A DNA stretch of 64,000 bases from assembly GCA_016125495.1 (NCBI GenBank), contig WGLQ01000015.1, forward strand, positions 62,001 to 126,000. Reading direction: 5' to 3'. The notes beneath the pieces were generated by a model. The model was not told the origin of the DNA and ran no database searches. It saw only the letters and a list, made by a program, of their open reading frames with translations. Of this stretch, positions 50,942 to 54,434 are shown piece after piece. Made by a program: the position numbers and the translations under genes. The stretch is from Hyphomicrobiales bacterium (GTDB lineage Bacteria > Pseudomonadota > Alphaproteobacteria > Rhizobiales > RI-29). The number at the start of each line of letters is the position of its first letter. Position 1 is the stretch's first letter.

Positions 50942-53194
50942 TCAGAACCGCCACTTGCCTTCCAGGTAGACCAGGGCGTCCTCGCGAGTGCCGCGGCCGA
51001 GGTCGAGGCCGCCCGCGCCATCGTAGGCAACGGTCGGATCGGTCTCGATGCCATAGCGGGCGCCGAACGCCAGCAGGAAGCCGTCCAGGTCGAACTCGAT
51101 CTGAAGGTCGGCCTCGGCGCCGAAGCCGGCAAAGCCGCCACTCTCGGAAGCGTTTCCGGCGGAAAGCCCAGCGACCCGCAATTGGGCGTCCGCGTTCGCA
51201 TAACCGAGCTTCACGAACGCATCGGCATCGAGAACGAGCGTGGCAAAGCCGAGCGGGGTGCCGCCGAGCGGTTGGCGGACGTGGCCGAAGAAGCCCAGAA
51301 GCGCGGAATGCGAATCGAGTTCGCGGGCGAGCGAGAAGGCCGCCCCGTCGAGCGCGCGCAGACCAAGCACCTCCTCCTCGAGCGACGTCAACTGGAGACC
51401 GGCCAGCAGACCGAACCGGCAGCCGGCACCCGACGAAAGGCATGCGTGCTCCGGCGATCCGAGGCGCAGCTCGGTGCGCAATTCGTGGTAGTCGGCATCG
51501 TAGGCGATCGGCGTCGCGCCCGGACCAGCCGCAGCCAGGATCGAGCCGCCGGGGGCTTCCAGGGTCAACACACCGGCCAACCCGACCGCCGGGGCGATAT
51601 TCGCGTCGTCTCCGGCGTCGATGACTCGGACCTCCCACTCACCGATGGCGACAGCTCCGATAGCTGCGCTCGCATCGAACGTGCCGGACACCTCGACCGA
51701 CCAGCTACCCAGTGTGCCGTCGCCACCTGCCGGGCGGCGGCCAGGCAGGTCGATCTCGCCGACGCCGATCCGGGCGCGCAGTTCGTGGGGGCGGGCCATT
51801 TCGAGATCGGCGTCGAGCGAACGCTCGCGCGGGGCGGCCTGCGGCAGAGCCGGCGAGCGCGGAACACTGCGAACAGGGCGGCGGCCGGTCGCACCCGACA
51901 ATCGCACGGGAGCGCGGGCGATCTGCGGGCGGCCGAGGTCGACGTCCTCGTCCACCGGGAGAACCGGCTGCTCCGGCGGCAGGATCGGCGAAATCCGGGG
52001 CGCGGCATCCGCCGTCGAGGGAGTGCGCGCGGCAGGTGCGGTCAGGCGATCCTGGGACTTGCCGTCATCGGTCCCGCCGTTCGGGTCGGGCGTCGCGATC
52101 GGCTCGCGCCCCTGGCGCTGTGCGGTGCCGGCCGAGGGGCCGGTTTCACGACCACCGGTTGCCGGCTCGGTCGTGCCGCGACATTGCGCGATGCAACGGC
52201 GATTGCCTGCCAGCATGGTGTCATAGGCCTCGAGACGCTCTTCGATGCGGCGCGTCGCCGAGACCACCTGGCTCCATTGCTCGCTGCGGCGCTCGAGGAC
52301 CTGCCGGAAGTCGGGGGCGAGCTGCTCGAGGGCCGCACGCTGCTGGATGATCTGAGCGTCGATGCTGGCGCGCCGTTCGCGTGCTTCGAAATCCGCGAGA
52401 CCGCGAATGCTCTGGAGATAGCGCTCGATGCTGGCGTCGCGGGCACGGTCGGCGCCGGCGACCACTTCCTCGGTGCGCGCCAGACCGGCACGGGTCGTTG
52501 CGAGCTGGCGCCTCTCGTCCTCGATCTGACCGACCAGATTGTTCACCTCGAGGACCTCGGCGTTACAGTCGGCGCACTCGGTGGCCTCCAATCGTTCGAG
52601 AGGGGATTGGGCGATGCGCGCGAAGTTCGGGCGCGCCGCGCCGCGCTCGACGTCGAGGCACTGATCGGTGCAGCGGCCAGCCAGCCGGGTGAACGCCTGG
52701 CTCTCGCTGCGCAGCCGCTCGATGACGGCATTGTGCCATGTGATGCGCTCGAAAAACTGGGCCTTGCGCTCGAGTTCGTCGGCAAGGCGGCGATCGAGAT
52801 CGGCGGTCTCCTCACTCAACCGGCGCAGACGCGCTTCGATCTCCGGCAACCGGGCACGATCGCGGTTGCTGCGGCGCTCGCGAAGGACCTGCGAGACAGA
52901 ACGCTCGTTGGCATCCTTCGATGTCGTGAGGCTCGCGATGGCCGCATCGACTCGCTCGACCTGAGCGAGCGTTCGCGTGCGGTCCTGCTCGAAGCGTCTG
53001 AGGTCCGCGGCGAGACTTGCGCCGGCCGCCGAGACGGTCTGACAGCGCGCGCATGGCGTGGCGGTGCCAGCCTGAGCGAATGCGGAGCGCGGCGAAAGGG
53101 CCACTACGAGTGCCAGGATGATCCCGACGAGTACGAACGACGCGACTGATTTCGGCCTAGACGCGGCCGCAACCACGCAAACGCGACTCTGCAT
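50942..53194 (-). CDS. Exported coiled-coil plus beta-barrel protein with four cysteine pairs, unknown
   Basis: This 750-aa protein has a signal peptide with cleavage near AFA-QAG (residue 40). Residues 50-330 are charged heptad-like coiled coil. It is interrupted by four close cysteine pairs: C48-x2-C51, C175-x3-C179, C207-x2-C210 and C334-x3-C338. A proline-rich linker follows (~340-450), then about 280 residues of amphipathic strands and glycines (GEWEVRVIDAG, LLAGLQLTSLEEEVLG, LQIEFDLDGFLLAFGARYGI) ending ALVYLEGKWRF. The terminal aromatic phenylalanine fits a Bam-recognised outer-membrane barrel. ATG 53194 has GGGGG upstream. No known family was recognised. A periplasm-spanning barrel with metal-binding or disulfide-linked coils is an inference. 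Confidence 0.75.
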   Translation of the reverse strand: MQSRVCVVAAASRPKSVASFVLVGIILALVVALSPRSAFAQAGTATPCARCQTVSAAGASLAADLRRFEQDRTRTLAQVERVDAAIASLTTSKDANERSVSQVLRERRSNRDRARLPEIEARLRRLSEETADLDRRLADELERKAQFFERITWHNAVIERLRSESQAFTRLAGRCTDQCLDVERGAARPNFARIAQSPLERLEATECADCNAEVLEVNNLVGQIEDERRQLATTRAGLARTEEVVAGADRARDASIERYLQSIRGLADFEARERRASIDAQIIQQRAALEQLAPDFRQVLERRSEQWSQVVSATRRIEERLEAYDTMLAGNRRCIAQCRGTTEPATGGRETGPSAGTAQRQGREPIATPDPNGGTDDGKSQDRLTAPAARTPSTADAAPRISPILPPEQPVLPVDEDVDLGRPQIARAPVRLSGATGRRPVRSVPRSPALPQAAPRERSLDADLEMARPHELRARIGVGEIDLPGRRPAGGDGTLGSWSVEVSGTFDASAAIGAVAIGEWEVRVIDAGDDANIAPAVGLAGVLTLEAPGGSILAAAGPGATPIAYDADYHELRTELRLGSPEHACLSSGAGCRFGLLAGLQLTSLEEEVLGLRALDGAAFSLARELDSHSALLGFFGHVRQPLGGTPLGFATLVLDADAFVKLGYANADAQLRVAGLSAGNASESGGFAGFGAEADLQIEFDLDGFLLAFGARYGIETDPTVAYDGAGGLDLGRGTREDALVYLEGKWRF

Positions 53195-53774
53195 GACTAA
53201 ACCCCCGATCACCAACTTGCCGGCAGGCTAGGTGATTCGAGGCTGGCGCCTCAGGTTGATTGAGCAACGTTTCGCCAAAAGCACGCGGCTCGTGAACAAT
53301 CGGTCGAAAACCAGGGGACAAAATCGATCAACATTATGAAATTGCGCCCATAATCTACCGCCCGCGAATCCTGCGACAGGATTGTCGATTGCGGGGAGAT
53401 CACCACGGCCAGGGCCATTCGGGCCGGTGGGGCGGCAACCGGCGGGTCCGATCGCCCGGGCAAGTTGCGCATCGGCGGGGCGTTGCAGCGGGCGCGTTCC
53501 GCTCCACACCGGGCCTCCACATCGGGCTGGACAAGGCCCGGGCGATGCGTCACACGGGCCAGCATGGCCACTCTCGGCGTGAACCCGGGTGCGCGACGGA
53601 GCCATTGCCTCAGACCGTGCCCGGAACGCGTCGAGACGAACGGGATCACCCGAGTGCCGCATCCGGCCGTTGCCGAGAACCGGCGCCGGATGCGACGTCC
53701 GAGACGGGGGTGCGGCGGATGCCTCGAGCCCGGCCCGGACGAGATTGTCATTTCAACACCGCAAGGGGGTAGGC
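53195..53774. other. Divergent intergenic region
   Basis: No credible ORF is seen. 53260-53360 is AT-rich for this genome and probably holds the promoter of the coiled-coil/barrel gene. A short perfect hairpin AATCCTG-cga-CAGGATT lies at 53367-53383. Confidence 0.4.
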
Positions 53775-54434
53775 ATGTCCAGCGGACGCGCAGCCATCAT
53801 CGGGACGTTCAAACGGTGCCTCGAGACCACGGCGCCGAAAGAGACCCCCTATAAACATTGGATCCTCGAACGCTGCATCCCCGAGGAAACGGTCGACGCG
53901 ATCATCGGCCTGCCGTTCAAGGCACCCGACCTCGGTGGCGTCTCCGGCAAGCGCGAACTGCACAATGCCACTCGCACGTACTTCGATCGCGACAACAGCG
54001 CGCGCCACGAAGTGGTGCACGATTTCGCGGAGGCCTTCCAGGCGCGCGAGACCACCGATTTCATCGAAAAACATTGCGGGCTCGATCTTTCGGGCACGTA
54101 CCTGCGGATCGAGTATGCCCAGGACACCGGCGGCTTCTGGCTGGAGCCGCACACCGACCTCGGGGTGAAGAAGTTCACGATGCTGGTCTACATCTCGCGC
54201 GACCCGGCGCACGCCAATCTCGGCACGGACATCTACGACGGCGAGAAGCGTCATGTCGGGCGCTCGCCGTTCCGGCCGGGCGGGGCGCTCATCTTCGTGC
54301 CATCGAACAACACGTACCACGGCTTCGAGCCACGCGACATTCCGGGCGTTCGCCAGTCGGTCATCATCAACTACGTGACCAACGAGTGGCGCGCACGCGA
54401 GCAACTGGCGTTCCCAGATTCGCCGATCGCCTGA
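53775..54434 (+). CDS. 2-oxoglutarate/Fe(II)-dependent oxygenase
   Basis: This 219-aa protein has the double-stranded beta-helix oxygenase fold. The iron ligands are H and D in LEPHTDLGVKKFTMLVYISR and the distal H in NTYHGFEPRDIPGVRQS, where R (with S) should bind 2-oxoglutarate. The core strands YLRIEYAQDTGGFW and GGALIFVPSNNTYHGF are typical. The substrate is unknown; relatives act on proteins or small molecules. ATG 53775 has AAGGGGG about 6 nt upstream; the longer frame to 53589 is not family sequence. It stands alone. Confidence 0.85.
   Translation: MSSGRAAIIGTFKRCLETTAPKETPYKHWILERCIPEETVDAIIGLPFKAPDLGGVSGKRELHNATRTYFDRDNSARHEVVHDFAEAFQARETTDFIEKHCGLDLSGTYLRIEYAQDTGGFWLEPHTDLGVKKFTMLVYISRDPAHANLGTDIYDGEKRHVGRSPFRPGGALIFVPSNNTYHGFEPRDIPGVRQSVIINYVTNEWRAREQLAFPDSPIA

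Follow-up and report, generated by a model that had tools for sequence, protein, structure and literature searches.

A protein of 750 amino acids, encoded in the window (the whole stretch of 64,000 nucleotides that was analysed), carries two copies of a helical hairpin module framed by cysteine pairs, followed by a proline-rich linker and a C-terminal region of the outer-membrane β-barrel type. The module is real, conserved and rare and its anatomy is well supported, while a function as spacer or scaffold is the best reading of it. Its motifs, their period, the conservation of the cysteines, the heptad hairpin model, the barrel-type fold and, in relatives, a sister architecture with a match to another kind of domain at the C-terminus were all obtained by computation. 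They are best explained, with about an even chance of being right, by a periplasmic array of disulfide-stapled hairpins which is anchored in the outer membrane and acts as a spacer or scaffold towards the peptidoglycan.

The proposed mechanism, for which we infer the disulfides and their pairing, the periplasmic location and the spacer or scaffold role, would run as follows. The protein would be exported and its mature chain would begin about seven residues ahead of the first CxxC, as judged by eye from the cleavage site. Two independent antiparallel coiled-coil hairpins would then form, with about 60 residues per arm and a length of about 9 nm, and at the base of each the CxxC of the first arm would meet the CxxxC of the second, such that two disulfides close the hairpin. 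The predicted pairing is outer with outer and inner with inner, for example C48-C179 and C51-C175. Because the chain enters and leaves each hairpin at the base, the short linkers would form a line from which the modules stick out as fingers. The proline-rich linker of 131 residues would tether the array to the barrel and, with the barrel in the outer membrane, the array would lie in the periplasm, where it could serve as a spacer or scaffold between the outer membrane and the peptidoglycan, its size being set by the number of modules.

More broadly, and with considerably less assurance, these proteins may belong to a modular envelope system of the alphaproteobacteria, undescribed before, in which a duplicating, disulfide-locked heptad hairpin of about 131 residues is combined with either a barrel or a peptidoglycan-binding domain, depending on lineage; module number would set the reach or stiffness of the connection between outer membrane and wall, and the disulfides would confer sensitivity to the periplasmic redox state. 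Only a few mechanisms are known that fix the distance between outer membrane and wall in Gram-negative bacteria. If the proposal is true, a hairpin of nearly fixed span, probably closed by disulfides and repeated two to eight times, would constitute a mechanical element, its length countable in the sequence itself; whether module number sets envelope spacing would become directly testable, and the arrays would be a bacterial tandem counterpart of the stapled helical hairpins of mitochondria. The features of the gene and its product are summarised in Table 1.

Table 1. Features of the window gene and its product; residues are those of the protein and positions those of the window.
Feature	Residues	Positions	Strand	Remarks
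Whole gene		50942..53194	(-)	750 aa plus stop
Signal peptide	1-40	53075..53194	(-)	cleavage after AFA by eye; hydrophobic helix 17-32 (AlphaFold2 model)
Hairpin module 1	48-179	52658..53053	(-)	CxxC 48/51, CxxxC 175/179; helices 49-109, 113-184
Hairpin module 2	207-338	52181..52576	(-)	CxxC 207/210, CxxxC 334/338; helices 208-265, 269-340
Proline-rich linker	339-469	51788..52180	(-)	mostly low model confidence
C-terminal β-barrel region	470-750	50945..51787	(-)	ends in WRF
Barrel cysteine pair	585/592	51419..51442	(-)	kept in 3/3 barrel proteins

The gene is read on the minus strand from an ATG at 53194 to a stop codon at 50942-50944. Its GC content by codon position (0.742/0.542/0.798) fits coding in this frame, and an open frame of 655 amino acids on the opposite strand, at 51182-53149 (+), has a GC3 that is nearly as high (0.747), so that composition alone does not decide between them. 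The gene frame is supported by conservation at the protein level and by an MQS start common to a relative, and the opposite frame is probably a by-product of base composition. Outside the modules, the only cysteines of the window protein are C6, in the signal peptide, and C585 and C592, in the barrel; a lipid anchor at the first cysteine was considered and rejected by eye, there being no lipobox. Covalent attachment of a mature N-terminus to the wall is known from Brucella and Agrobacterium.

Searches of Pfam, NCBIfam and PDB sequences with the window protein yielded nothing significant, the best weak family matches being to LEA_2 (E 0.2) and to a TrlF-type ATPase (E 0.075), and no significant match to a described family was found by sequence for module or barrel, which agrees with the sequence-only reading, where no described family had been recognised. 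Moreover, a module profile retrieved only three generic helical chains from the PDB sequences (E 0.005-0.009), and no description of a module of this kind was found in the titles and abstract beginnings of the open-access papers that literature searches retrieved.

Relatives are few. A search with the window protein (P0001) of 297 sampled genomes of the order gave four matches at E <=0.001, in its own genome, G009, G018 and G250, the last of which is false, its overlapping frames resembling parts of an ABC transporter by eye. The module profile matched nine of 397 genomes of the order; three of these (the window's own, G009 and G018) carry the cysteine motifs, which the remaining six (E 2.6e-5 to 9.6e-4, with locus L025 placed uncertainly) lack. 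When genome contigs were searched, P0001 alone found no relative and a barrel profile found G009 and G018 again. Only these two matched among 110 relatives each of G018 and G009, samples which appear to be one set, and only the window's own genome matched among 299 genomes of the phylum; plasmids gave no match to P0001 or to the protein of a further genome, G516.

The G009 contig comes from a Hyphomicrobiales MAG and encodes a protein of 817 amino acids with two modules and a barrel, which is 40% identical to the window protein and carries all eight of its module cysteines in aligned columns. The G018 contig derives from an uncultured Hyphomicrobiaceae MAG, and its protein, whose translation was joined across two overlapping contigs, has 1513 amino acids with seven modules and a barrel. 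The window gene and the G009 gene share part of their surroundings: the neighbour in the same place as the window's divergent neighbour is 68% identical to it over 207 residues, and a dehydrogenase-type gene farther on is 72% identical over 292 to its window counterpart. No functional hint was found in the genes adjoining the window gene. The divergent neighbour itself (53589-54434, +) is presumably oxygenase-like and matched nothing in Pfam at E 0.001. Directly beyond the 3' end of the G009 relative lies a frame that looks integrase-like by eye (L007 1-864, -), and the locus may therefore border a mobile element there.

Three weak matches to the barrel profile (L014-L016, E 2.9e-4 to 6.7e-4) were not counted as relatives; by eye, L014 looks non-coding and L015 and L016 look like outer-membrane barrel proteins without modules, L015 being also without a Pfam match. 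Twelve weak matches to the module profile (L022-L027, L032, L038-L042) were treated as generic coiled coils: in 11 of the 12, the open frame lacks both CxxC and CxxxC for 150 residues to each side of the match, and in L025, near a contig edge and uncertainly placed, it has one CxxC.

The modules are defined by their motifs, which lie exactly where the sequence-only reading had placed them, and in the window protein both the CxxC and the CxxxC pairs recur with a period of exactly 159 residues. In five proteins, from the window, G009, G018 and two genomes of a second order, G516 and G412, exactly four cysteines occur in 25 of 25 modules and none between modules, though these are not 25 independent cases, since G516 and G412 belong to one genus and three of the G516 modules are 99% identical. 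The modules were excised by their motifs, and the absence of additional cysteines is not a result of that construction; the four-cysteine invariance in alignments A4 (9 of the 11 modules from the window, G009 and G018 proteins) and A6 (16 of the 25 modules) is. The spacing between the first cysteines of the two motifs is 127 residues in 15 of the 25 modules and 86, 123, 126, 128, 128, 133, 133, 134, 143 and 143 in the remaining ten, and the second motif is CxxxxC in four modules, two each from G516 and G412. Linkers between modules measure 27 residues in the window protein and 26-36 in the Hyphomicrobiales proteins, with a single one of 82. Modules 1 and 2 of the window protein share 20% identity with each other, and identity to their G009 counterparts is 41% for module 1 and 31% for module 2; as they are nearer to these counterparts than to each other, the module duplication predates the split between the two proteins.

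An AlphaFold2 monomer model, built on a four-row alignment (A5) after an earlier one (A3) proved misaligned and was dropped, shows two antiparallel helical hairpins with turns at 110-112 and 266-268. The sequence-only reading had envisaged a single coil of 280 residues interrupted by the cysteine pairs; the model replaces it with two tandem hairpins, and the further suggestion that the coil is folded into hairpins, with the pairs at the ends of its segments, is supported. Block pLDDT is 83-95 over residues 51-170 and 78-89 over 201-340, with values of 50 (41-50) and 70 (171-180) at the base of hairpin 1, where its cysteines lie, and the pTM of the full-length model is 0.38. Counted from the first cysteine of each pair, CxxC and CxxxC lie at almost the same distance from the turn, 63 and 64 residues in hairpin 1 of the model and 60 and 67 residues in hairpin 2. 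A heptad signal was also obtained independently of the model: an ungapped stack of 11 non-redundant modules, from the 15 with a spacing of 127, gave a hydrophobic period of 3.50 in the first arm (reached in 0 of 500 column shuffles) and of 3.48 in the second (1 of 500), with arm limits that we set ourselves.

A fold search with the full model returned a mixture of long helical proteins, of which several had rmsd >25, and only local hairpin matches were used. Hairpin 1 of the model can be superposed on the hairpin of VIPP1 (7o3w; rmsd 2.0, 130 aligned), and hairpin 2 on the elbow of MukB (6h2x; rmsd 2.9, 139 aligned), similarities which speak for shape only. The modelling thus supports a helical part made of two tandem folded-back hairpins of about 9 nm, with the cysteine pairs predicted at their bases.

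With cysteine pairs facing each other at the predicted hairpin base, in an exported protein and in a genome that encodes DsbB (E 6e-30), two disulfides are the best explanation, as in the small Tims, whose antiparallel helical hairpin is held by two intramolecular disulfides (PMC3759932). The small Tims (twin CX3C) and CHCH proteins (twin CX9C) resemble the modelled module in that an antiparallel helical hairpin carries two cysteine pairs opposite one another. They differ in being small, soluble, single-hairpin proteins, whereas the present arms have about 60 residues, the motifs are CxxC and CxxxC and the modules form tandem arrays fused to a barrel; moreover, the window, G009 and partial G018 proteins have no such Pfam match, even with E values of up to 1 admitted. 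The IZUMO1/SPACA6 (IST) superfamily offers a second case, described in PMC9482655 as a helical domain in which two disulfides link a pair of CXXC motifs, but there the domain is a four-helix bundle of animal gamete proteins, its motifs join helix to β-hairpin hinge, and it gave no sequence match. Both groups share only the principle of stapling with the module.

The four cysteines which the model brings together in each of the 25 modules could alternatively form a CxxC plus CxxxC site for zinc or another metal at the hairpin base, with a stabilising or sensing role. Reduced small Tims, which have twin CX3C motifs, bind zinc 1:1 (PMC3759932). We nevertheless judge a metal-binding organiser improbable, because export brings a protein into oxidising surroundings, in a cell that encodes DsbB, and because no conserved histidine or acidic ligand was seen beside the cysteines in the module alignments; the CxxxxC motif of four modules does not separate the two readings. 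Of the two roles offered by the sequence-only reading, that of envelope spacer still reads best, and that of metal-binding organiser is possible, though less likely than disulfide staples. Given that the stapled hairpins of the small Tims act as chaperones (PMC3759932), the hairpins might also hold on to unfolded client proteins, or to a pump as partner, in the manner of small Tims or of efflux-adaptor hairpins, and the window gene and that of G018 do each have an MFS transporter gene in the vicinity, the two transporters being 52% identical over 371 residues. Such a periplasmic binding or chaperone array seems remoter still: the arms present no conserved surface, the four cysteines being the only invariant positions in the module alignments, and the MFS gene does not directly adjoin the module gene, nor did it turn up next to the relative's gene on the 8.9-kb contig of G009.

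Between the hairpins and the C-terminal region lies the proline-rich linker that had been noted from the sequence; it is 131 residues long with 16% proline in the window protein and 206 residues with 14% in G009 (limits set by us), values which would suit a flexible tether. The barrel was modelled from residues 440-750 together with two relatives, three sequences in all, and the model has seven long strands from residue 564 on, with a mean pLDDT of 59 and a pTM of 0.55; residues 440-562 have pLDDT <50. Foldseek gave no match to this model at E 0.001 (best 3.4e-3), and when its candidates were realigned with VIA-align all 50 entries listed were, by title, outer-membrane proteins or chains of their complexes. 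The best match among those listed was a Legionella porin (Z 14.2, rmsd 3.2, 190 aligned), and OpcA and omptins matched at Z 11.9-12.8 (OpcA 12.8). We conclude with moderate confidence that the C-terminal 280 or so residues form an outer-membrane-type β-barrel, as the sequence-only reading had proposed; the region was not predicted to be soluble. The model speaks for the fold class rather than for a particular family or number of strands, and its first strands have pLDDT <50.

Type Va autotransporters consist of a signal peptide, an N-terminal domain, a linker and a C-terminal 12-strand barrel with a pore helix, and they carry their passenger to the cell surface. The window protein has the same order of domains, the β-domains of EspP, AIDA-I, BrkA, EstA and NalP are among the fold matches of its barrel (Z 8.8-10.6), as is the adhesin barrel OpcA, and a changing number of modules would suit a stalk, so that the hairpins might be an outside passenger for adhesion or spacing behind an autotransporter-like translocator or adhesin barrel. 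We regard this as unlikely. The N-terminal part is helical and cysteine-rich here, omptin and OpcA barrels score higher than the autotransporter β-domains, and a Pfam search of the window, G009 and partial G018 proteins, with E values up to 1 admitted, gave no autotransporter match. Furthermore, the sole helix preceding the barrel strands comprises model residues 21-27 at a block pLDDT of 33, the four cysteines of each module would tend to fold before export, and in the sister architecture the array is paired with a match to a peptidoglycan-binding domain.

Closest in plan are SlpA of Deinococcus, with an N-terminal periplasmic part that includes a coiled coil and a C-terminal outer-membrane barrel (PMC9388160), and OmpM of diderm Firmicutes, an outer-membrane tether of the same plan (PMC10628300). 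These proteins carry SLH domains and trimeric coiled-coil stalks in place of the predicted folded-back hairpins with four cysteines each. As a search for SLH domains (Pfam, E up to 1; window, G009 and partial G018 proteins) came back empty, we do not file the window protein as a member of this group, although it may work like its members.

The periplasmic spacer reading draws further on proteins outside the order. A profile (A4), built without the G516 and G412 proteins, was run against 385 genomes of the class and hit eight of them at E <=1e-4, one being the window's own. On G516 and G412 the best match reached E 1.5e-11, with five and three separate near-full-length module matches, respectively, and five weak matches (G498, G362, G635, G548 and G634; E 1.2e-6 to 8.9e-5) were without the motifs. 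The G516 protein, from a second alphaproteobacterial order, has 1642 amino acids and eight modules, and the G412 open frame, from the same genus, has 1318 amino acids and six modules; the latter opens close to a contig end and no signal peptide was resolved. Three of 11 genomes in the order of G516 carry the module, the third being G779. Across all relatives module number ranges from 2 to 8.

Neither G516 nor G412 appeared among the barrel-profile matches in the class sample. Their C-terminal regions match PG_binding_1 instead, at 24.9 bits in G412 (cut-off 23) and at 22.2 bits, below the cut-off, in G516. For G516 a thioredoxin match, also below its cut-off, does just as well by E-value (1.7e-4, with no stretch that passes by itself, versus 1.6e-4, one stretch, for PG_binding_1), and the case for PG_binding_1 therefore rests on G412. 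The same region gave weak NCBIfam matches to families such as spore cortex-lytic enzyme, and in the window protein neither PG_binding_1 nor another recognised peptidoglycan-binding domain was found with Pfam. The pairing of the same array with this domain match would place the array between outer membrane and wall, and hence points to a spacer or scaffold.

Modules 5-7 of G516 (L049 4811-9739) are about 99% identical with a period of 165 residues, reflecting either an array that expanded recently in tandem or an effect of the assembly; their near identity suggests that the array grows by tandem duplication. After the last module of L049 and L050, six non-module cysteines occur before and around the PG_binding_1 match, in a region that looks β-rich and which we take to resemble the Ig-like repeats of alphaproteobacterial surface proteins.
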